Assembly (NCBI RefSeq): GCF_004745595.1
Contig: NZ_SRLH01000005.1
Location: forward strand, 124,001 to 188,000
Reading direction: 5' to 3'
DNA: 64,000 nt
Origin: Flavobacterium humi
GTDB taxonomy: Bacteria > Bacteroidota > Bacteroidia > Flavobacteriales > Flavobacteriaceae
A program made the position numbers and the translations under genes. Below, piece after piece: positions 1,136-32,289 of this stretch (its first letter is position 1; each line of letters starts with the position of its first letter). A model generated the notes under the pieces. That model did not search any database and was not told the DNA's origin. It worked only from the letters and a program-made list of their open reading frames with translations.

Positions 1136-1984
1136 TTATTTTAATGTAATGGTGTCAATTAATCTGACGTTGTTAACAAAAACAGCGATAAATGCCCTAT
1201 AGGTTTTTGTTTTGCTTTTACGCAGGCAGGGCAAAAGGGTCTCTTCATCTGCGATTTCAAAATATTCCAGTTCGAACATGGTTTGTTTTTGGAATGTTTT
1301 GGTTACCCAATCGGTCACAGCAGCAGCACTTTTTGTGGCAAACCGTTTTTTGGCTTCCGTCAAGGTTTTGAAAATGAAAGAAGCGTTGTCCCTTTCTTCG
1401 GCAGAAAGCCTTTCGTTGCGGGAACTCATCGCCAGGCCATTGGCTTCCCTATGGATTTTGCAGCCCACGATCTTTACCGGAAGATGGTGTTTTTCGACCA
1501 TTTTCTTTACGATCTGCAATTGCTGGAAATCCTTTTCCCCAAAATACGCATGGGTCGGGCCGACAATTTCGAATAGTTTTTTTACAATGGTTCCTACCCC
1601 GTCGAAATGCCCCGGCCGGTGTTTGCCTTCCATTTGGAATTCTAGCCCGTCATAGTCAAAATGCTTTGAAACGGTATTTCCTTCATAAATATCTTCAACC
1701 GAAGGCGCGTAAACAATTATATTTTTATCGAGCGAATTTATTTTCTGCATATCGCTTTCCAGCGTCCTTGGGTATTTTTTCAAATCTTCAGGATTGTTGA
1801 ATTGGGTCGGATTTACAAAAATACTCACAACAGTCACTGTGTTGTTTTTTAGCGATTCTTTCATTAACGACAAATGTCCTTGATGTAAAGCACCCATGGT
1901 TGGGATAAATCCGATGGATTCTTTTTCGAGCCAAAACGGCTTCAAATGAGCTTTTAGCTCTTTTTGTTTAACAAAAACAGACAT
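1136..1984 (-). CDS. panC: Pantoate--beta-alanine ligase
   Basis: Joins pantoate and beta-alanine with ATP to give pantothenate. With the start chosen here the protein is 282 residues. Family motifs are in order: [10 protein letters not shown] (residues 28-37, containing the nucleotide-binding HxGH), FGEKDFQQ (148-155) and MSSRNERLS (186-194). The frame is open upstream to a TTG at 2005, but that codon lies only three bases from a -7 promoter box (2008-2015 on this strand) and would be at or before the transcription start. The ATG at 1984 puts the PTMG motif at the usual distance from the N-terminus. It is the first gene of panC-panD-YbhN. Confidence 0.96.
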
Positions 1985-2007
1985 GTTTGTATTATATAAA
2001 TTCAATG

Positions 2008-2015
2008 CAAACTTA
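2008..2015 (-). promoter_or_regulatory. -7 box of the panC promoter
   Basis: Minus strand TAAGTTTG, a perfect TAnnTTTG match. Transcription would begin near 2003, giving a leader of about 20 bases to the ATG at 1984. It excludes the upstream TTG as a useful start. Confidence 0.65.
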
Positions 2016-2046
2016 CTATTTTAGTCTTTATCTGCATAAAATTTTG

Positions 2047-2054
2047 TAATTTTG
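2047..2054 (+). promoter_or_regulatory. -7 box for the glycogen-synthase-like gene operon
   Basis: TAATTTTG, a perfect match, 38 bases before the ATG at 2093. It is divergent from the panC promoter about 30 bases away. Confidence 0.6.
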
Positions 2055-2092
2055 CATGGAATTGTGTTCAATAAACATAACAAAAATAAAAC

Positions 2093-2902
2093 ATGGAGGA
2101 TAAAAGGATTTTGTATGTATCATCCGAAGTAGTGCCCTATCTTGCTGAAAATGAGGTTTCTTTAATGTCGTATGACGTGCCAAAAATGATTAATGACCAA
2201 GGCGGACAAATACGGATTTTTATGCCCCGTTATGGCAATGTAAACGAAAGAAGACATCAATTGCATGAAGTTATTCGTCTCTCCGGGATGAATCTGGTGG
2301 TTAACGACGTGGATATGCCGCTGATTATTAAAGTAGCTTCCATTCCAAAAGAGCGAATCCAGGTTTATTTTATTGATAACGATGAGTATTTCAAACGCAA
2401 AGCTACCTTTGCTGATGAAGATGGAGTTTTGTTTCCCGATAATGACGAACGTGCGATATTCTTTGCAAAAGGAGTGGTGGAAACCGTAAAAAAACTCAAC
2501 TGGGTCCCTGATATTATCCATGTTCAGGGTTGGATGGCAGCCATGTTGCCTATTTATATGAAACATTTTTACAAAGACGAAGCGTTATTTGCCGATACTA
2601 AAATTGTCACTTCTGTTTTCAACCAGTCCTTTGACGGTAGCCTCGATGCTCAAATGAGCCAGAAAGTACAGTTTGACGGTGTTCCCCATGAAGCGATTTC
2701 GGAATTGGACGAACCTACTTTTGAAAACATCATGAAGGCTTCCATCAATCATTCCGACGGGGTGGTAATCGCCTCGGAAGGCCTATCCTCAAATTTAACA
2801 AAATTTATAGAAGCTTCAAAAAAACCTTTTTTACCTTTCGCCACGAAAGACAAGTTCGCGGAAGCGTATACACAATTTTATAAAAATCAAATTTTAGGTT
2901 AA
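2093..2902 (+). CDS. Glycogen/starch synthase-like protein, N-terminal GT5 domain only
   Basis: The 269 residues match the N-terminal catalytic half of GT5 glycogen synthases: an opening ILYVSSEVVPY, then IFMPRYGNVNER, a VYFIDNDEYF segment and PDIIHVQGWMAA, where glycogen synthases have an HDW-type motif. The whole C-terminal Rossmann half, which binds ADP-glucose, is absent. The N-terminal KTGGLADV substrate motif is replaced by a segment around LAENEVSLMSYDVP. It is therefore unlikely to be a working glycogen synthase. The gene starts a close run with the DUF4270 lipoprotein (5-base gap) and glmS, as in many Bacteroidota, which hints at a role tied to amino-sugar or envelope metabolism. That role is inference. 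Confidence 0.8.
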   Translation: MEDKRILYVSSEVVPYLAENEVSLMSYDVPKMINDQGGQIRIFMPRYGNVNERRHQLHEVIRLSGMNLVVNDVDMPLIIKVASIPKERIQVYFIDNDEYFKRKATFADEDGVLFPDNDERAIFFAKGVVETVKKLNWVPDIIHVQGWMAAMLPIYMKHFYKDEALFADTKIVTSVFNQSFDGSLDAQMSQKVQFDGVPHEAISELDEPTFENIMKASINHSDGVVIASEGLSSNLTKFIEASKKPFLPFATKDKFAEAYTQFYKNQILG

Positions 2903-2907
2903 TTTAA

Positions 2908-4509
2908 ATGATGAACATCCCTTTTTTTAAAAAGCTAACTGTTGTTTTGGCAGTTGTACTATTTGCATCATGTGATAAGGATTTTAATTCTGTAGGTTCT
3001 GATATTGTCGGGAACGAGAATTTTGATTTGGAACACCAGACGTTTGCTACAAAAGTATATAACCAAAAAATCCAGGCCATACAAACCAACAATACGGCAA
3101 TTGGCCAACTGGGGATACTTGACAACCCTGTTTTTGGTAAAACAAAAGCTGATTTCGTTGCACAGCTGATTTTGCTTGATGAAGCGCCGGAGTTCAAATC
3201 GAACATAGTGGTAGATAGTGTGATCCTTACGGTTCCTTATTTCAGTACAAAAACAGAAATCAAATCAAATGGGTTGGGCATCTATGAACTGGATTCGATC
3301 CATGGTTCCGGAAGTATCAACCTACAGGTTTTAAGAAACGGATTTACATTAAATGAATTTGATCCCGGGAATAATTTCGAGACCGCGCAAAAATACTATT
3401 CAGACCAACAGGCTGATTTCGATAATAATATAGTGGGAAGTGCTTTAAATAACAGCTCGTTGGCAGCTGAAAACACTGCTTTCCTTCCAAGTGAGAAAGA
3501 ATATGTGAAATACAAAGTGGATGCGAGCTTCAACATGATGCCTAAAATTGCAGCCAATGTAGAAGCAAGGAACTCACCTAGGATGCGTTTGCATTTGGAT
3601 ACCAATTATTTCAAAACGAATATAATTGATGCGCCGGCAGATAAACTGATCAACAACAATGCTTTTAAATCGTATTTTAAAGGACTGTATTTCAAGGTAA
3701 CCGATGCACCGGCAGGAAGCCTGATGTCGTTGGATTTCTCCAAAGGAGATGTAACCATATATTACAAACAAGATATTACCGTTACTACCGGCCCGCCAAG
3801 TTCCAGCAGGGAAATGAAAAATCTTGTACTAAGCATGGCTACGGGAATAAAAATCAATTTGCTGAAAGATACCGATTCCCCTGACTATACCGCGGCTTTT
3901 ACAGCGCCTAACCAGCAGAATTTTGACGCAAAAAAACTGTTTGTGAAAGGTGGACAGGGTTCCAATGCTTTTATCGAATTGTTCACTCCTGCGCAATTGA
4001 CTGAGTTAAAGGCACAAAATGTGTTGGTCAATGAAGCCAGCCTAACCTTTACGGTTGATAGTTCTTTGCCAAACAATTATTCACATCCGCTAAGGCTTTA
4101 TCTATATGATGCAGAGACGGGCCAATTTTTGTACGATTATGCGGCCGATCCTTCCACAGTTACCTCAAACCCAAAGTTGAACAAATATGTTTATGGCGGG
4201 ATATTGGAGAAAACAGCTGCAGGGAAAAGGACCTATAAAATCAGGATTACCGGTTTTGTAGACAGGATCCTGAAAGGCAAAACAGACAATGTGCGTTTAG
4301 GGCTTGTTGTTACCGAAAGTATTGGTGCCATTAACAGTATGAGTTTGAAAACGCCTTCCGCTGCTCCAAGCTCTACAGACAATACCAAAACACAAAAAGC
4401 AATACCTGCAGGTTCTGTAATGAGCCATTTCGGAACGGTATTGTACGGCAACGGGAATTCAGCAGCTGATGATGTTAAATTTGAAATTTATTATACAAAA
4501 CCTAATTAA
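2908..4509 (+). CDS. DUF4270 family surface lipoprotein
   Basis: A 533-residue exported protein. The N-terminus is a lipoprotein signal (hydrophobic stretch, then LFASC with the lipidated Cys at residue 22). The body fits DUF4270, a Bacteroidota family of about this length with no established biochemical function. Conserved-looking parts include the early SVGSDIVG and the late segments with FVDRILKGKTDNVRLGLVV and a C-terminal EIYYTKP. It starts 5 bases after the GT5-like gene and ends 9 bases before glmS, so the three are probably cotranscribed. Location on the outer membrane is inferred from the signal. Either of the two adjacent Met codons could be the start. Confidence 0.85.
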   Translation: MMNIPFFKKLTVVLAVVLFASCDKDFNSVGSDIVGNENFDLEHQTFATKVYNQKIQAIQTNNTAIGQLGILDNPVFGKTKADFVAQLILLDEAPEFKSNIVVDSVILTVPYFSTKTEIKSNGLGIYELDSIHGSGSINLQVLRNGFTLNEFDPGNNFETAQKYYSDQQADFDNNIVGSALNNSSLAAENTAFLPSEKEYVKYKVDASFNMMPKIAANVEARNSPRMRLHLDTNYFKTNIIDAPADKLINNNAFKSYFKGLYFKVTDAPAGSLMSLDFSKGDVTIYYKQDITVTTGPPSSSREMKNLVLSMATGIKINLLKDTDSPDYTAAFTAPNQQNFDAKKLFVKGGQGSNAFIELFTPAQLTELKAQNVLVNEASLTFTVDSSLPNNYSHPLRLYLYDAETGQFLYDYAADPSTVTSNPKLNKYVYGGILEKTAAGKRTYKIRITGFVDRILKGKTDNVRLGLVVTESIGAINSMSLKTPSAAPSSTDNTKTQKAIPAGSVMSHFGTVLYGNGNSAADDVKFEIYYTKPN

Positions 4510-4518
4510 TTATTTATT

Positions 4519-6366
4519 ATGTGTGGAATTGTTGGATATATAGGTCATAGAGAAGCTTACCCAATTATCATAAAAGGGCTTAAGCGACTTGAATATAGAG
4601 GGTATGATAGTGCCGGAGTAGTGCTTTATGACGAAAAGGATTTGAAGCTTTCCAAAACCAAAGGAAAAGTTTCCGACCTGGAAGAAAGGGTTGCTAAGGA
4701 AATCAGTACGAAAGGGACCATCGGCATTGGCCACACACGTTGGGCTACCCATGGTGTACCGAACGATGTGAATTCGCACCCGCATTTATCAAATTCAGGC
4801 AATCTGGCGATTATCCACAACGGGATTATCGAAAATTACGAGCCGTTAAAAAAGGAATTGATCAAAAGAGGGTATACTTTCAAATCGGATACAGATACGG
4901 AAGTCCTGGTAAATCTTATTGAAGAGGTTCAGAAAAATGAAAATATCAAATTAGGGAAAGCAGTACAGATAGCTTTGAACCAAGTGGTCGGAGCGTATGC
5001 CATCTGTGTTTTTGACAAGCAAAAGCCGGATGAAATCGTCGTTGCCCGTTTGGGAAGCCCATTAGCGATTGGTATCGGTGAAAATGAATTTTTCATTGCA
5101 TCGGATGCATCCCCTTTTATCGAATATACTTCCAATGCCATTTACCTTGAAGACGAAGAAATGGCGATCGTACGTTTGAACAAGGATTTGAAAATCCGTA
5201 AAATCAAGGACGATTCATTGGTAGATCCTTATATCCAGGAGCTCCAGATGAATTTGGAGCAAATTGAAAAAGGAGGCTATGATCATTTTATGATGAAAGA
5301 GATCTATGAGCAGCCAAATGTTATTAAAGATACGTACCGAGGACGTCTCCATGCCAATGAAGGATTGATCAAGATGGCCGGTATTGAAGACAATATCGAT
5401 AAATTCATCAACGCACAGCGCATCCTGATTGTGGCTTGCGGAACATCCTGGCATGCCGGTTTGGTGGCGGAATATATTTTTGAAGAATTTGCCCGCATCC
5501 CGGTTGAAGTCGAATATGCATCCGAGTTCCGATACAGGAACCCGATCATCGGCGATAAGGATGTTTTAATTGCGATATCGCAATCCGGAGAAACGGCAGA
5601 TACTTTGGCGGCTATAAAACTGGCTAAAGAAAAAGGAGCTTTCGTTTTCGGGGTTTGCAATGTGGTAGGATCTTCCATTTCCCGTGAAACGCACGCAGGT
5701 GCCTATACGCATGCCGGACCAGAAATAGGTGTGGCTTCCACAAAAGCATTTACGACACAAATTACGGTTTTGACCATGATCGCACTTCGTTTGGCTAAAG
5801 CCAAAGGGACGCTTTCCATCTCAGATTACCACAGGTATTTGTCAGAATTGGAAACAATCCCGGAAAAAGTATCGGAGGCTTTGCATACAAACGATAGCGC
5901 TAAAGCAATAGCGACGGTTTTTAAAGATGCTACGAATTTCCTTTATTTGGGAAGAGGATACAATTTCCCGGTTGCGCTTGAAGGTGCTTTAAAACTTAAG
6001 GAAATCTCTTATATCCATGCCGAAGGGTATCCTGCGGCCGAAATGAAACACGGTCCGATCGCATTGATCGACGAGCAGATGCCGGTGGTGGTTATTGCTC
6101 CAAAACAAGGGCATTATGACAAAGTCGTGAGCAACATCCAGGAAATAAAATCCAGAAGCGGAAAAATCATCGCAGTTGTTACAAAAGGGGACGAGCAGGT
6201 TCGCGCTTTGGCAGACCATGTTATCGAAATCCCGGAAACTTCAGACGCCATGTCTCCGCTGTTAACAACAATCCCATTGCAATTGTTGTCTTATCATATT
6301 GCTGTGATGAGAGGTTGTAATGTAGACCAGCCAAGGAATTTAGCGAAGTCTGTAACGGTAGAATAG
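4519..6366 (+). CDS. glmS: Glutamine--fructose-6-phosphate aminotransferase (isomerizing)
   Basis: Makes glucosamine-6-phosphate from fructose-6-phosphate and glutamine, the first step to UDP-GlcNAc for peptidoglycan and LPS. The 615 residues have the full architecture: class II amidotransferase domain with N-terminal Cys2 nucleophile (MCGIVGYIG), the HTRWATHG and HNGIIENY motifs, then two SIS sugar-isomerase domains (about 300-430 and 465-600) with the SQSGETADT and EGALKLKEISYIHAEGY segments, ending in LAKSVTVE. It is the last gene of a run with the GT5-like protein and the DUF4270 lipoprotein and is followed by a strong terminator. No glmS ribozyme is expected or seen. Confidence 0.98.
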   Translation: MCGIVGYIGHREAYPIIIKGLKRLEYRGYDSAGVVLYDEKDLKLSKTKGKVSDLEERVAKEISTKGTIGIGHTRWATHGVPNDVNSHPHLSNSGNLAIIHNGIIENYEPLKKELIKRGYTFKSDTDTEVLVNLIEEVQKNENIKLGKAVQIALNQVVGAYAICVFDKQKPDEIVVARLGSPLAIGIGENEFFIASDASPFIEYTSNAIYLEDEEMAIVRLNKDLKIRKIKDDSLVDPYIQELQMNLEQIEKGGYDHFMMKEIYEQPNVIKDTYRGRLHANEGLIKMAGIEDNIDKFINAQRILIVACGTSWHAGLVAEYIFEEFARIPVEVEYASEFRYRNPIIGDKDVLIAISQSGETADTLAAIKLAKEKGAFVFGVCNVVGSSISRETHAGAYTHAGPEIGVASTKAFTTQITVLTMIALRLAKAKGTLSISDYHRYLSELETIPEKVSEALHTNDSAKAIATVFKDATNFLYLGRGYNFPVALEGALKLKEISYIHAEGYPAAEMKHGPIALIDEQMPVVVIAPKQGHYDKVVSNIQEIKSRSGKIIAVVTKGDEQVRALADHVIEIPETSDAMSPLLTTIPLQLLSYHIAVMRGCNVDQPRNLAKSVTVE

Positions 6367-6391
6367 ACAGTATTTTATATAATTTATTGTG

Positions 6392-6420
6392 AAAAGCGGG
6401 ATGTATTCCCGCTTTTTTTA
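6392..6420 (+). terminator. Terminator after glmS
   Basis: AGCGGGA and TCCCGCT arms with a short loop, followed by a run of seven T. The 240 bases from here to the receptor gene at 6661 are very AT-rich and show no gene. I found no exact TAnnTTTG box there. Confidence 0.85.
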
Positions 6421-6660
6421 TTGTATATGCAATTTTTTTTTCTTGATTTTTCTACAATTAAAAACCGTTTATTATGTATGCATAGCATTTGTTTGCGGGT
6501 AAAATTGTTAAAATTTTGAGAATAATTTAATAAAATTAGCTTTATAATAATATTTAACTTTTAAAACTCTTTAAATTACAACGAATATTTGTAGTCTCTT
6601 TTTTATTTTTAACAAATAATATTGTAATTTGGCTATCTAAACCAACAAAATTCAAAACGA

Positions 6661-25621: not shown

Positions 25622-28261
25622 ATGAAATCAAGACTACTATTTTTTCTCACATTATTTTTTATCGGGACTATAGAAAATGCCAATTCACAATGTACGGTAA
25701 CGGCTTCCACCAATTCCAGCGCTTTAGCTTGCGGAGTGGCTCCTTTAAGCGGATGCGGAGGAATTGTTTACATTGGTGACGGGACCAATCCCATGACCAT
25801 AAGTTTTAATGCCAATCTGGATTTGACCTGTCTGGGAGCCATTCAGTTCATTGTCAGAAGCCAGGCGACTTTAGACTTTTCCCCGGGGAATAGTTACCTA
25901 AGATTAGCCACCGGGTCTTCTATATATTTTCAGCCGGGAGCAGGCCTTGTAGGAGGTTCCTGTAACGCTTCTGAAAGGATTTACATAGGGACAGACCTTA
26001 TTGCCAGTTGTAATGGTAACGGCCCCGGAGCCGATTATGATTTTCCCGGATTGCTCAATGCCGGAGGATTCAATATAGTTAAAGATACCAGCCCTGTGCA
26101 TTCGTCTTGCGGTTCTTCGGCATTCACTTTAACAGCGGTCGCGATACCTTCCAGCGGAGCAACCATAAGATGGTATAATGTAGCCAGCGGAGGATCAATA
26201 CTTGCTACAGGAGCGAGTTATACGACTCCGGTATTGGCAAGTTCGGCAACATATTATGCTGAGGCTTTTTATTCCGCAAGCGGATTTACCACACCAAGGA
26301 CTTCCTTTGCGTTAACCGTAAATTCATTGCCATCCGCTCCATCCATCGGAACGGTTACCAGTGCCACTTGTTCGCTTGCCACAGGAAATGTGATTATTAC
26401 TAATTTGCCGGCATCAGGAACCTGGACTTTAACCCGGAGCGGTACTTCCAGCGCTACTACTACAGGTACAGGTACAAGTACTACTATTTCGGGGCTTGCT
26501 CCAGGAACTTATACTTTTACGGTTTCCAACGGAACGTGTACTTCTGCAGCATCCGGCAGTGTTGTCATTTTGTCTTCCCAAACCGTATGGAACGGCTCTG
26601 GCTGGAGCAATAGCCCGCCTTCCCTGACAAGATCTGTTGTAATAAGCGGCAATTACCAGACTGCCGTTAGCGGTGGTTTCAGTTGTTGCTCGCTCACCAT
26701 AAATCCGGGCGCGAGCTTAACGGTCTTTAAAAATGATTATGTTGAGATCCAAAACGAACTCACTAATAATGGAACTGTAACTATTGAAGACAGCGGATCG
26801 CTGGTTCAGATAAATAATGCCTCTGTTAATACCGGTACTATTGTGATGCAAAGAGCGGCTTTGGTTGACGGTTACGATTATGTGTACTGGTCTTCTCCGG
26901 TAGCTTCATTTTCATCCAGCAACATTTCGCCTACCACGAGTAATATTATTTACAAATGGATTCCAACCGTCGCTTCCAACACTAACGGACACGGTACTTG
27001 GGTAAACGGAAACGAAACAATGGTCAAAGGAAAAGGCTACATCGAAAGAGGCTTGAACAATGCTCCTTCAAACGTTTCTTTTACTTCCTCCTTTACCGGA
27101 ATCCCGAACAATGGTATCGTTACCATTCCTATCAGCAGGGGCACTTACGACCTGGCTGCTAACTACAATACCAGCTTGTCGCCAACTTTTGCTACAAAAG
27201 ACGATGACAATTGGAATTTGCTGGGAAATCCGTACCCTTCTTCTATTTCGCTGTACCAGTTCCTGACCACCAATACGAATATTGCCGGCTTTGTGAAAAT
27301 CTGGAAACACGGATTGGCGCCATCATTGTCTAATCCGAGTCCTTTTTACAATTCGTATGCGTACAATTATGATGCGAACGATTATACGACTTATAATTTA
27401 GCCGGATCTTCTGCCGGATCTTCGTCCGATTATTTTATCGGCGCAGGCCAGGGCTTTTTTGTACTGATGAATGCCAATACGGCCGCTACTACTGAAAATG
27501 TGGTGTTTAACAATGTTATGCGAAATAAGAATTATGCTAATAATCAGTTTTTCAGAGGGGCTTCCGCAGCAAATCAAAAAAGCGCGGCAAGCGGAAGGAT
27601 CTGGCTCGACATAGTATCTTCCACAACCAACAGAAGAACAATGATAGGATATATTGAAGGAGCTTCCAATGAAAAAGACAGGCTGTTCGATGCAGATACC
27701 GATTTAAAAATGGATTTCAACATTTATTCTTTAATTGGTTACGAATCGCAAATAATCCAGAGTAGAAAACTCCCTTTTGACGAAAATGACATTGTTCCTT
27801 TAGGGATGAAAATTCCTTCTAACGGAAATTATACTATTGCCATAGGAGAAGTCGACGGGTTCTTTGCAAATGCCGGCCAGAAAATTTATCTGGAGGACAA
27901 AGCCCTGCATATTGTGCACAACCTGAGCTTGGCTCCTTATCAGTTTACGGGCGTTGCAGGGATAAGCAATGAGCGTTTTGCCTTGCGTTTTACAGATGTC
28001 ACATTGGGCAATCCGGACCCTGAATTGATTTCGGGCAACGTGGCGATTTACCCTTCGGATAATACAATTGTAATTGCTTCCAAATTGGAAAATATCAAAG
28101 AATACTCCATTTATGATGTTTTGGGAAGAGCATTGGCCTCTCAGTACAAAGTAAATTCAAAAGAAATGTTAGTGACGTCAATCATGAATAGCAACCAAGC
28201 TTTAATTGTGAAAGTAGTTTTGGAAAACGGCCAGTCTGTTACCAAAAAAATTATTTTCTAA
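25622..28261 (+). CDS. Large T9SS-exported surface protein sharing its C-terminal module with the preceding gene
   Basis: 879 residues. Signal peptide 1-22 (ends NANSQ), a Cys-rich beta region (about 23-160), one or two Ig-like domains (about 160-315), then a module from about residue 318 to the end that aligns closely with residues 1105-1667 of the upstream neighbour. Matching landmarks are VWNG.GWSN, YVYWSSPVA, DDNWNLLGNPYPS, GAGQGFFVLMN, RIWLDIVS, KDRLFDA and the sorting end ENGQSVTKKIIF. The two genes are tandem paralogues at the 3' end with unrelated front parts. Surface attachment through T9SS is expected; the function is unknown. Confidence 0.85.
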   Translation: MKSRLLFFLTLFFIGTIENANSQCTVTASTNSSALACGVAPLSGCGGIVYIGDGTNPMTISFNANLDLTCLGAIQFIVRSQATLDFSPGNSYLRLATGSSIYFQPGAGLVGGSCNASERIYIGTDLIASCNGNGPGADYDFPGLLNAGGFNIVKDTSPVHSSCGSSAFTLTAVAIPSSGATIRWYNVASGGSILATGASYTTPVLASSATYYAEAFYSASGFTTPRTSFALTVNSLPSAPSIGTVTSATCSLATGNVIITNLPASGTWTLTRSGTSSATTTGTGTSTTISGLAPGTYTFTVSNGTCTSAASGSVVILSSQTVWNGSGWSNSPPSLTRSVVISGNYQTAVSGGFSCCSLTINPGASLTVFKNDYVEIQNELTNNGTVTIEDSGSLVQINNASVNTGTIVMQRAALVDGYDYVYWSSPVASFSSSNISPTTSNIIYKWIPTVASNTNGHGTWVNGNETMVKGKGYIERGLNNAPSNVSFTSSFTGIPNNGIVTIPISRGTYDLAANYNTSLSPTFATKDDDNWNLLGNPYPSSISLYQFLTTNTNIAGFVKIWKHGLAPSLSNPSPFYNSYAYNYDANDYTTYNLAGSSAGSSSDYFIGAGQGFFVLMNANTAATTENVVFNNVMRNKNYANNQFFRGASAANQKSAASGRIWLDIVSSTTNRRTMIGYIEGASNEKDRLFDADTDLKMDFNIYSLIGYESQIIQSRKLPFDENDIVPLGMKIPSNGNYTIAIGEVDGFFANAGQKIYLEDKALHIVHNLSLAPYQFTGVAGISNERFALRFTDVTLGNPDPELISGNVAIYPSDNTIVIASKLENIKEYSIYDVLGRALASQYKVNSKEMLVTSIMNSNQALIVKVVLENGQSVTKKIIF

Positions 28262-29442: not shown

Positions 29443-29503
29443 GCTTTTTACACGCAACCTTATGGTAAATTATACATCTATACCAATATAAATTGAAAAG
29501 ATC

Positions 29504-29914
29504 ATGAAAAAGTTTTGGTTACTCATAGTTGTTGTTTTCACTTTTGTAGGATGTGATTTGCACGATGATTATATAGATTATCATCTGGAATTGCTGCCTG
29601 TTGAAAGTGCGGATTTGCCGATGGAATTTAAAAGGGACAGTATTTATGAACTGCCGTTTCATTACATAAGACCAAGTACATGCCATGTTTTTGAAGGATT
29701 TTATTACCAAAGGAATTCAAATACAAGGACCATTGCCATACAAACCAGTGTGCTGGAAAGAAATGATTGTACAACCCCGATTGCAAATCCGGTTGAAGCG
29801 ATTTTAAAATTTAAGCCTACAACCGAAGACAGTTATATTTTTAAAATGTGGAAAGGGGAAGACGATAACGGTGAAGATGTTTTTGAAGAAGTCGAAATTC
29901 CGGTTGTGCCATAA
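29504..29914 (+). CDS. Small lipoprotein of unknown function
   Basis: 136 residues with a clear lipoprotein signal (hydrophobic VVVFTFVGC, Cys17). The mature part is acidic, with Cys in STCHVFEGFYY and RNDCTTP that may form a disulfide. I do not recognise the family. It ends 15 bases before the ECF sigma factor gene and is likely cotranscribed, so it may belong to the same envelope-stress unit. That link is inference from spacing. Confidence 0.75.
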   Translation: MKKFWLLIVVVFTFVGCDLHDDYIDYHLELLPVESADLPMEFKRDSIYELPFHYIRPSTCHVFEGFYYQRNSNTRTIAIQTSVLERNDCTTPIANPVEAILKFKPTTEDSYIFKMWKGEDDNGEDVFEEVEIPVVP

Positions 29915-29929
29915 ATAATTAAATGAAAA

Positions 29930-30469
29930 TTGAGTTTACCTATACTCATACAAGGATGCTTAGAAAAAAATACCAAGTCGCAAGAACAATTATATCAATT
30001 ATATGCTGCCAAATTGTTTTCTGTTTGCTTGAAGTATTCCCGTAATTATGCCGAAGCGCAGGATAATTTACAAGACGGTTTTTTAATCATTTTTGATAAG
30101 ATAGGACAATATAAATTTGCCGGTTCGTTTGACGGCTGGGCAAAGAGGATCATGGTCAACCATGTTTTGCAGCAATACAGGAAGACCACTTTTTTGGAAT
30201 TGGTAAATGATGTGGTGGATGAAGCTTCGATAGAAATCGATGACGAGAATATCAGTCTCGATTTTTTGCTGAAAATTGTACAGGAACTGCCCGACCGTTA
30301 CAGGCTTGTGTTCAACCTGTATGTGCTTGACGATTATTCGCATAAGGAAATTGCGGAGATGTTAGGGATTTCCATCGGGACGAGCAAGTCGAACCTGGCC
30401 AGGGCCAAAATGATTTTAAAAGATAAAATAGACGCGTCACAAGATAAAATTGTACCCTCGGTAAAATGA
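29930..30469 (+). CDS. ECF-type RNA polymerase sigma factor
   Basis: 179 residues. Sigma-2 region about 20-90 (YAAKLFSVCLKYSRNYAEAQDNLQDGFLIIFDKI), sigma-4 region about 115-170 with the helix-turn-helix HKEIAEMLGISIGTSKSNLARAK. The start must be the TTG at 29930: an in-frame TGA lies two codons upstream and no Met occurs before residue 75. An ATG at 29923 is in another frame. The stop overlaps the start of the next gene by 4 bases (ATGA). The pair resembles a sigma factor with its membrane regulator, and autoregulation is likely but not visible. Confidence 0.9.
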   Translation: MSLPILIQGCLEKNTKSQEQLYQLYAAKLFSVCLKYSRNYAEAQDNLQDGFLIIFDKIGQYKFAGSFDGWAKRIMVNHVLQQYRKTTFLELVNDVVDEASIEIDDENISLDFLLKIVQELPDRYRLVFNLYVLDDYSHKEIAEMLGISIGTSKSNLARAKMILKDKIDASQDKIVPSVK

Positions 30470-32289
30470 GCGAAAGAAAAAATATAGAACGTTTGTTCCA
30501 GGAAAAATTCAAAGATTTTGAAGCTGCTCCGCCACCACAGGTCTGGGCGGGTATCGAATCAAAATTAGAGAAAAAAGAAAGCAAACCAACCGCTGCGGTT
30601 CCTTTTTGGCTTAAGGCTTCAGGAATAGCGGCTGTATTGCTTTTGGGGTATTTTACCGCGGATAATTATTCGAAAGTGGCCCATTATTTCAATACCGACG
30701 CGAAGCAACCTGAAACAGTGGTTTCTGCAGGTTCTTCCAATACGGGAAATGCACAAGGCGACACTACTAACAATAATAAGGAAGGAAACATTGGTAATGG
30801 AAATACCGCCAATGGCAATTTGCAGGAGAACCCAATCGCAGGCCAGGAAGATGCTGTTGTACTCCATGATAATACTACCGGGAATGAAAAGCCTTCCCTG
30901 CTGAATCCGGGCCAAACGCATAACGCTTCACAAGAAAGCGTGGTTTCATCTGCGCAAAGCAACAACCGGGCAGCCATTCCAACAGGCAAAAACAGGAAAT
31001 CGGAACAATCCCGCTTCAAAAACCAGGACAACACAACATTGCAACACGATCAGGATATAGCTGTCGCGGCAACATCCCAGGCTAAAAAAGAGGGAGGCAA
31101 AAAATCAAATAATTCAGATAAAGCAACAGAATTGGCCCTTTCGGGAGATAACCAAAGAGATCATCAAAAGCAGTCCATAGCTGAAAATAATACCGGAGAG
31201 CAAGGGCAGGAAGTAAGGGACGGAATAGCTGCAAAAGACAAAAACCGTACAGAAACCGCCCAAAACAAATCCCGTATGGCTAAATTATCGGAGGAAATCA
31301 TCAAAAAGGCCGGCGTTGCCAATGGTATGGCTATTACTGAAGGCAAAAATTCCTCTGCGGCAAATGCATCGAATCAAACCCGGAATCCTGACAAAAATAT
31401 TTCATTATTCAATGAAGGAAAAAACGCTTCGGCTTTCAATACGGCAAACCCGGCCTTCAGCACTACTGTAAAAACGGTTAAGGATTCTGCCATAATTGCT
31501 GCAGCCGAAAACCCTTTGGAGAAAATCCTGAAAGAAAAAGAAAACAAAGACAAGGAAGAGAAAAAAGTAGCGGCCAATAGCACCAAGTGGAAAATCCGCC
31601 CGAATGTGGGACCGGTTTACATGAGTGCTTCAAAAGGATCTCCTATTGATGGCCAGTTTGGTGACAACGCCAAAGAATACGAAAAAAATATCAGCATCGG
31701 TTTGGGCGTTGATTATGCCGTAACCTCAAAAATAGCGCTCCGTACAGGAATCAGTAAACTTGATTTGGGTTACCATACCAACGGGATTGTGTATTATGAA
31801 GACCTGAACAGCAGGGGTACCAATTCCATAATACTGAGGAACATCAATTTGAGGCCGGAAGCTTCAAGGATGGTTGTGGAGGACAGGGACATGCCGGCTT
31901 CACAGGAATTGGCCTTCCAGGACAAAGAAGAAGGTTATTTAAGCCAACAGATGGATTATATGGAGGTTCCGGTTGAGGTTTCTTATACATTAATCGATAA
32001 GAAATTCGGGCTGCAGCTGATCACCGGATTGAGTACTTTATTTTTGAGCGGCAATGAGGTTTCGGTGGTGTCCAATGGATTTTCAACAACGTTGGGAGAA
32101 GCCAATAACCTGAATAAAGTGCATTTCAGTACCAATATTGGGTTGGGTGTAAAATATAGCTTCTGGAAATCTTTCGAGGCTAATTTCGAACCCACATTCA
32201 AATATCAGATCAATACGTTTAATGAAAATTCCGGTGGATTCAAACCTTATGTAATTGGTTTGTACACTGGGATAAGTTTTAGGTTTTAA
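30466..32289 (+). CDS. Inner-membrane-anchored protein with long linker and C-terminal outer-membrane beta-barrel, probable sigma regulator
   Basis: 607 residues. Residues 1-45 are cytoplasmic, with FQEKFKDFEAAPPPQVWAGIE typical of proteins paired with Bacteroidota ECF sigma factors. One transmembrane helix follows at about 46-63. Residues about 65-373 are a low-complexity linker rich in Asn, Gln, Lys, Ala and Gly. From about 374 the sequence becomes an outer-membrane beta-barrel-type domain (IRPNVGPVYMSASKG, ISIGLGVDYAVTSKIALRTGISKL) ending in YTGISFRF with a terminal Phe. It overlaps the sigma gene by 4 bases. A protein touching both membranes and controlling the sigma factor is inferred. 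Confidence 0.8.
   Translation: MSERKNIERLFQEKFKDFEAAPPPQVWAGIESKLEKKESKPTAAVPFWLKASGIAAVLLLGYFTADNYSKVAHYFNTDAKQPETVVSAGSSNTGNAQGDTTNNNKEGNIGNGNTANGNLQENPIAGQEDAVVLHDNTTGNEKPSLLNPGQTHNASQESVVSSAQSNNRAAIPTGKNRKSEQSRFKNQDNTTLQHDQDIAVAATSQAKKEGGKKSNNSDKATELALSGDNQRDHQKQSIAENNTGEQGQEVRDGIAAKDKNRTETAQNKSRMAKLSEEIIKKAGVANGMAITEGKNSSAANASNQTRNPDKNISLFNEGKNASAFNTANPAFSTTVKTVKDSAIIAAAENPLEKILKEKENKDKEEKKVAANSTKWKIRPNVGPVYMSASKGSPIDGQFGDNAKEYEKNISIGLGVDYAVTSKIALRTGISKLDLGYHTNGIVYYEDLNSRGTNSIILRNINLRPEASRMVVEDRDMPASQELAFQDKEEGYLSQQMDYMEVPVEVSYTLIDKKFGLQLITGLSTLFLSGNEVSVVSNGFSTTLGEANNLNKVHFSTNIGLGVKYSFWKSFEANFEPTFKYQINTFNENSGGFKPYVIGLYTGISFRF

Follow-up and report, generated by a model that had tools for sequence, protein, structure and literature searches.

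In FecR/FecI systems, a signal that begins at the outer membrane frees an extracytoplasmic function (ECF) sigma factor. The Dma proteins join a sigma-binding N-terminus, one membrane helix, a long disordered tether, and a C-terminal beta barrel, and their genes adjoin ECF21 sigma genes (PMC13088901). Deletion of dma2 raises das2 and adjacent genes, the extra gene of the dma2 operon, BT_1557, encodes a DUF4943 protein, and the Dma outputs given in the available parts of that paper are vesicles and polysaccharide loci (PMC13088901). Reo of Phocaeicola vulgatus spans five compartments, from cytoplasm to surface, and likely senses outer-membrane stress (PMC13114119), and the EcfO regulon, as far as the accessible text goes, includes NigD surface lipoproteins (PMC13114119, PMC9308784). 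Here, we examined a 64,000-nucleotide window of Flavobacterium humi (assembly GCF_004745595.1, contig NZ_SRLH01000005.1, positions 124,001 to 188,000), in which genes for a small lipoprotein, an ECF sigma factor, and a 607-residue protein (hereafter the long protein) follow one another. By analogy, the sigma factor and the long protein appear to belong to the published Dma/Reo kind of Bacteroidota, fitting every feature of it testable here, insofar as the available parts of the two papers describe it (PMC13088901, PMC13114119). We consider it likely that the long protein is a membrane-bridging anti-sigma chain, that its partner sigma factor acts at a promoter driving the operon and a few outer-membrane genes, and that the lipoprotein is an output of this switch. 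The comparative addition made here consists of three points not found in the literature searched: the lipoprotein of the operon, the promoter, and how broad the lipoprotein regulon is in Flavobacteriaceae; that search, with bioRxiv and most subscription papers outside it, returned no paper describing this lipoprotein or this promoter.

A preliminary description, made from the sequence, had proposed that the protein overlapping the sigma gene links the outer membrane to a sigma regulator in one chain, and all three genes were found where it had placed them (Table 1). The sigma stop codon and the ATG of the long-protein gene share four bases (ATGA). Both sigma regions 2 and 4 are recognized by Pfam (Sigma70_r2, E 7.5e-11; Sigma70_r4_2, E 1.3e-16), and the general sigma70-ECF model, TIGR02937 (E 9.9e-24), was the sole NCBIfam model above its cut-off among the matches listed. 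The orthologues of the sigma factor mostly start no more than a few residues away from its TTG codon.

Structure prediction of the long protein (AlphaFold2, 79 sequences) returned the expected layout of an N-terminal domain, one membrane helix, a disordered linker of about 270 residues, a barrel, and a terminal Phe. The single hydrophobic helix was evident from both hydropathy, with the best 19-residue windows at residues 41-65, and the model. The tether is 15% hydrophobic, free of Cys, and ranges from 134 to 300 residues across the 79 aligned rows. Averaged over alignment columns, identity reaches 0.65 in residues 1-45 and 0.57 in the barrel but only 0.19 in the tether. Because of the tether, the mean predicted local distance difference test score (pLDDT) of the whole chain is only 65; from residue 371 onward, 21 of 24 ten-residue blocks reach at least 88. 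On this evidence the long protein would be an anti-sigma factor of the Dma/Reo kind, with a presumed sigma-binding role for residues 1-45, and the one-chain link from outer membrane to ECF sigma regulator gains support from its match to a published design. The likeness to Dma lies in the same four-part chain, the adjacent ECF sigma gene, and an extra operon gene, and is one of architecture as given in the available text rather than of sequence alignment with Dma1-3; unlike dma2 with its BT_1557 (DUF4943), the present operon carries a beta-sandwich lipoprotein gene upstream, beside recA. EcfO-Reo of Bacteroides fragilis and P. vulgatus, likened by the partial description available, has the cytoplasm-to-surface span predicted here and surface lipoproteins in its regulon; the lipoproteins scanned here match no Pfam NigD family and one of them lies inside the operon.

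The poorly conserved tether of variable length would also fit a chain cut anywhere in the periplasm, with the barrel working alone and the signal consisting of regulated proteolysis of the inner-membrane stub, a mechanism that is widespread among other anti-sigma systems. However, all 80 named relatives (the best 80 of 365 confirmed in a scan of named genomes) encode N-terminus, helix, and barrel in a single open frame; full separation would not require this, and we regard such a cut as unlikely.

The preliminary description would have failed had the C-terminal region been a soluble periplasmic beta domain. The model instead places a helix at residues 350-368 ahead of eight long strands within residues 375-606, which are predicted to fold into an outer-membrane barrel. 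In Foldseek, all of the ten best matches were small outer-membrane barrels, including OmpA, NspA, Ail, and OmpW (OmpA 9fzd, TMt 0.70). VIA-align with residues 369-607 gave Z scores of 17.7 for NspA, 17.6 for OprF, and 17.0-17.6 for OmpA, with crystal structures of NspA, OprF, OmpA, and OmpW at about 16-18 and nuclear magnetic resonance models lower. By sequence alone, the Pfam family OMP_b-brl scored 16.8 bits against the window protein, under its cut-off of 28.7; at E 0.01 it was matched by 13 of 21 relatives. All 80 named relatives end in Phe, and the more distant relatives L048 and L049 end in Leu. A soluble beta domain therefore appears unlikely from the structure matches. Strand alternation was rejected as evidence for a membrane barrel. 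It occurs in seven of the eight barrel strands, yet the lipoprotein sandwich has an equal spread, and the strand parity differences (0.2-4.6 for the barrel versus 0.3-4.4 for the lipoprotein) do not discriminate between the two.

The sigma gene adjoins the long-protein gene in 80 of 80 named loci, and the lipoprotein gene lies directly upstream of this pair in 76. In the other four (L087, L101, L108, and L120) recA is followed directly by the sigma gene. Among 20 fetched loci, 15, all of the same genus, keep the order recA, lipoprotein, sigma factor, long protein; in a locus from another family (L047) the lipoprotein gene is downstream of the long-protein gene and recA was not found; and in the remaining four, one of them holding a second pair of this genome, the search at E 1e-3 gave no homologue of the lipoprotein. 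This recurrent order suggests more than chance. A search with the single protein matched 25 of 60 near genomes, and a profile of 21 relatives, applied at E 1e-6 to 345 genomes of the class, matched 180, in some cases only through the N-terminal part of short frames. Across 296 genomes of the order at E 0.001, the lipoprotein profile matched 89 and the long-protein profile 116, many of the matches weak or partial. The second sigma and long-barrel pair of this genome (G000 C13:177640-179322; L048 7079-9329) has a 468-codon frame with a lipobox-like start just upstream. In one other family (f5), frames of about 750-860 codons have only the N-terminal part of the anti-sigma protein in common, and one such frame (L181 5455-7923) adjoins a sigma gene.

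The case for a dedicated promoter comes from conservation. The predicted -10 element lies 23 bases ahead of the lipoprotein ATG. Scanning of the 250 bases before the lipoprotein gene in 77 regions, with shuffles as control, recovered CGCAACC in 75 (shuffle mean 0.62) and CGCAACC-N13-18-[TCA]ATC[TC] in 73 (shuffle mean 0.02). Measurable spacers were 15 bases in 69 of 77 regions and 14 in eight, and four of the regions are loci lacking the lipoprotein, where the motif precedes the sigma gene. Across 149 genomes of the family, CGCAACC-N15-16-ATCT was found 770 times versus 185 for the reversed control; 29 of the matches fell in one genome (G115), many with identical spacers, as if on repeated elements. 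The exact motif was missing from 17 of the 149 genomes. Fifteen of these also lacked the long protein (E 1e-5); the remaining two carry it, with a one-base variant of the motif, AGCAACC-N15-CATCT, before the operon. Conversely, the long protein was present in 17 of 17 chosen motif-bearing genomes, and the motif was absent from the recA-linked place of G084, which has no pair there. Conservation and joint absence thus support the view that the sigma factor would read CGCAACC-type promoters. It is very improbable that the motif is a passenger here that works for some other regulator (a second ECF factor, for example, or recA control): its position directly after recA in recA-linked loci and at least one further sigma gene of the same type in this genome (C13) would allow for this, but motif and anti-sigma protein are jointly absent from the 15 genomes, with both present in the two apparent exceptions, and further sites around the genomes precede lipoprotein genes within a narrow range of distances. 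The SM6 motif of F. psychrophilum, compared by description rather than by logo, was not equated with the operon motif because it is described, in the part of the source available, as a CGT box in the -10 region (PMC9723704).

The window lipoprotein was modeled as a beta sandwich (pLDDT 92). Cys 60 and Cys 89 are both kept in 74 of 75 members of the family, and 66 of 76 lipoproteins carry at least two acidic residues at positions +2 to +7, most commonly as S-[LVI]-D-D-D. These residues are close to the Bacteroidetes surface-export signals SDDFE and SDDDD given in the accessible part of PMC5080379, and the acidic positions suggest that the lipoprotein may be exposed at the surface. No Pfam family matched the window lipoprotein. 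A PDB sequence search yielded two weak matches (E 0.35 and 0.54) mostly in the signal region, and Foldseek found none in the PDB at E 0.001 or below. The best VIA-align Z score was 5.7, in the range expected from common beta arrangements, and 3nqi, a B. fragilis lipoprotein, scored 5.1 over 97 residues. Kinship with NigD was rejected, as that family was absent from the Pfam matches of 75 operon lipoproteins at E 0.01. TraQ_transposon, a weak match in 4 of the 75 (best E 0.00077), was not believed. In three loci (L090, L093, and L118) a weaker second lipoprotein copy lies just upstream of the first.

Whether the lipoprotein belongs to the switch bears on an alternative in which it is a bystander whose place beside recA has other causes and whose only tie to the pair is a shared transcript. 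Homologues do stand alone: in G084 the lipoprotein lies beside recA with neither pair nor motif (in that genome the order-wide scan with the long-protein profile had no match, and the class-wide scan had a weak one at another place, within a frame containing two stops), and in 6 of 7 loci fetched for family f5 (L162, L164-L168) it occurs by itself beside an rsmG-like gene, so named by reading, with no adjacent sigma or anti-sigma gene. The pair also occurs without it, in the 4 of 80 loci above. Against a bystander role, the trio stays together in L047 with the lipoprotein downstream of the anti-sigma gene and recA not found, the remaining f5 locus (L163, G203) again has the lipoprotein upstream of the pair, and the promoter stands before the lipoprotein in 73 of 77 regions, making this alternative rather unlikely. 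The suggestion in the preliminary description that the lipoprotein could be a third part of the system finds support in synteny, the shared promoter, and the downstream placement in L047; the freestanding homologues speak against it. As a lead only, 7 of 13 hand-picked pairs from other sigma/anti-sigma clades have a strict lipoprotein upstream, and 3 of the 7 are or contain the homologue itself.

We also inspected motif sites beyond the operon, hand-picking 60 of 90 listed sites in 13 other genomes. Of the 30 sites left out, nine were one of two recA-flanking sites in as many genomes; the remaining 21 mostly had a spacer that was shorter or a different base before ATCT, and two of the 21 were well formed. 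At 41 of the 60 sites a start codon follows the -10 element by no more than 60 bases, and 36 of these 41 genes probably encode lipoproteins (27 with a strict and 9 with a relaxed lipobox), compared with 48 of 571 background genes (31 strict and 17 relaxed) drawn from the 80 recA-linked loci. The operon lipoprotein accounts for 6 of the 41; excluding these, 21 strict and 9 relaxed lipoboxes were counted among 35 genes. The candidate regulon genes fall into many unrelated families. Ten of the proteins were scanned against Pfam: only L271 (DUF6970) and the nonlipoprotein L232 passed a cut-off, and none matched NigD at E 0.01. These counts suggest that small lipoproteins are switched on by the sigma factor, among them the one whose gene lies beside it. 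A broader and more tentative proposal, which we hold as possible yet somewhat doubtful, is that across the Flavobacteriaceae one bridging anti-sigma protein and its ECF sigma factor command, through CGCAACC-N15-[CT]ATCT, many unrelated and mostly unnamed small surface lipoproteins, and that the operon lipoprotein docks on the barrel as a third part and sets or resets the signal.

Other arrangements of sites were also recorded. The motif lies 190-464 bases upstream of a rhodanese-related gene, YceA-like by reading, in L215, L223, L229, L249, L255, and L274, six of the 19 sites far from a start codon. Several genomes have two motif sites about 1.1-1.2 kb apart around recA, pointing away from each other. 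Downstream of the motif in L308 (G216; 1471-6429) comes a series of different lipoprotein or secreted genes, after which the sigma and long-protein genes lie.

Within the F. humi genome, the only other exact motif site lies 167 bases before a gene for a SusC-type receptor adjoining rnhB. Counts in this one genome are uninformative, with the loosened motif GCAACC found 6 times versus 6 for the control and two-mismatch sites 144 times versus 126, so that conservation carries the promoter case. Since the control of the exact pattern occurs three times here, the receptor site is believable only because it recurs in relatives: it precedes the best-matching receptor by 159-168 bases in 6 of the 11 genomes of the genus with the long protein (one through a one-base variant), versus 0 of 9 genomes without the long protein or with a distant one only (20 loci in total). 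A crude RnhB peptide motif was located upstream in 6 of the 20 receptor loci, and together with the promoter motif only in this genome; gene neighborhood therefore does not confirm the six receptors as the same gene. The receptor is possibly a target of the sigma factor in F. humi. The F. johnsoniae beta-barrel assembly machinery (BAM) has the new subunits BamG, BamH, BamM, and BamP, and the available text lists a separate major SusC, Fjoh_0403 (PMC12611786). The receptor was rejected as a BAM subunit, scoring well above cut-off with the SusC/RagA model and only 33 bits with the BamP model, whose cut-off is 230. A site before such a receptor would suit a nutrient system of the SusC/FecR type, in which the receptor signals to the anti-sigma factor. 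However, Pfam found no FecR domain in the long protein up to E 1, the protein differs from FecR/FecI in joining its own barrel and the anti-sigma domain in one chain, and no receptor gene lies at the locus; we give such a system hardly any credence.

Taken as a membrane-bridging switch, the locus could operate as follows. At rest, judging from the family, the two-helix N-terminus would hold the ECF sigma factor at the inner membrane while the tether spans the periplasm and the predicted barrel sits in the outer membrane. A disturbance there, for example failed barrel insertion or a bound ligand, would alter or break the chain and free the sigma factor, which would then read promoters of CGCAACC, 15 bases, and [CT]ATCT. 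With its own operon among the targets, lipoprotein, sigma factor, and anti-sigma protein would increase jointly, and the anti-sigma protein made from the same transcript would close the loop. Further targets would be a few outer-membrane genes: in F. humi possibly that of the SusC-type receptor, and in many of its relatives those of small lipoproteins from several families. The operon lipoprotein itself would be produced as part of the response, and it may act back on the barrel as a modulator.

Several points weigh against this reading. Sigma binding, release, and transcription are inferred, and the barrel is predicted. The 80 named loci, as the best of 365, are biased toward close kin, and the 17 motif-bearing genomes were chosen, not drawn. 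All 15 genomes without motif and protein are small (1.3-2.6 Mb), 7 of them less than 90% complete, and general gene loss may explain part of the joint absence. Lipoprotein homologues lack an adjacent pair in 12 of 20 loci, several of which were chosen for that. Site picking for the regulon sample favored good matches, its background was confined to the recA neighborhood, at 19 of its 60 sites the next start codon is more than 60 bases away, and 6 of the 60 fall within long frames. In the F. humi genome itself the exact pattern has 2 matches versus 3 for the control, and the receptor site is missing from 5 of the 11 genus genomes with the long protein.

By reading of the frames, the operon is flanked by recA upstream and by an acyltransferase-like gene on the opposite strand and a trpS-like gene downstream. 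Upstream of recA, an 879-residue protein (window positions 25622-28261) looks secreted, and we take its C-terminal end to resemble type IX secretion sorting domains.

Table 1. Features of the lipoprotein-sigma-anti-sigma operon, in window positions (position 1 is the first base of the 64,000-nucleotide stretch)
Feature	Positions	Strand	Basis
Predicted ECF promoter: -35 CGCAACC (29453-29459), 15-base spacer, -10 CATCTA (29475-29480)	29453-29480	+	conserved motif
Small lipoprotein gene, 136 residues	29504-29914	+	lipobox with Cys at residue 17, acidic residues behind the Cys
ECF sigma factor gene, 179 residues, TTG start	29930-30469	+	Pfam Sigma70_r2 and Sigma70_r4_2; TIGR02937
Anti-sigma-like protein gene, 607 residues	30466-32289	+	open reading frame, hydropathy, alignment, structure model
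Residues 1-45, two-helix cytoplasmic domain, presumed sigma-binding	30466-30600	+	model helices 5-19 and 24-38; conservation
Residues 47-75, inner-membrane helix	30604-30690	+	hydropathy, model helix
Residues 76-344, mostly disordered periplasmic tether	30691-31497	+	pLDDT mostly below 50; one short helix, 269-281
Residues 375-606, predicted 8-stranded outer-membrane beta barrel; Phe 607 ends the chain	31588-32283	+	model, structure matches

Little is known of how Bacteroidota sense trouble at the outer membrane, and the family members in the literature consulted are from gut Bacteroidales. A conserved promoter that is missing together with the anti-sigma protein makes the proposed regulon testable in many species at once. 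It would also link orphan small lipoproteins, mostly unnamed by Pfam in the scanned sample, to one sensor.

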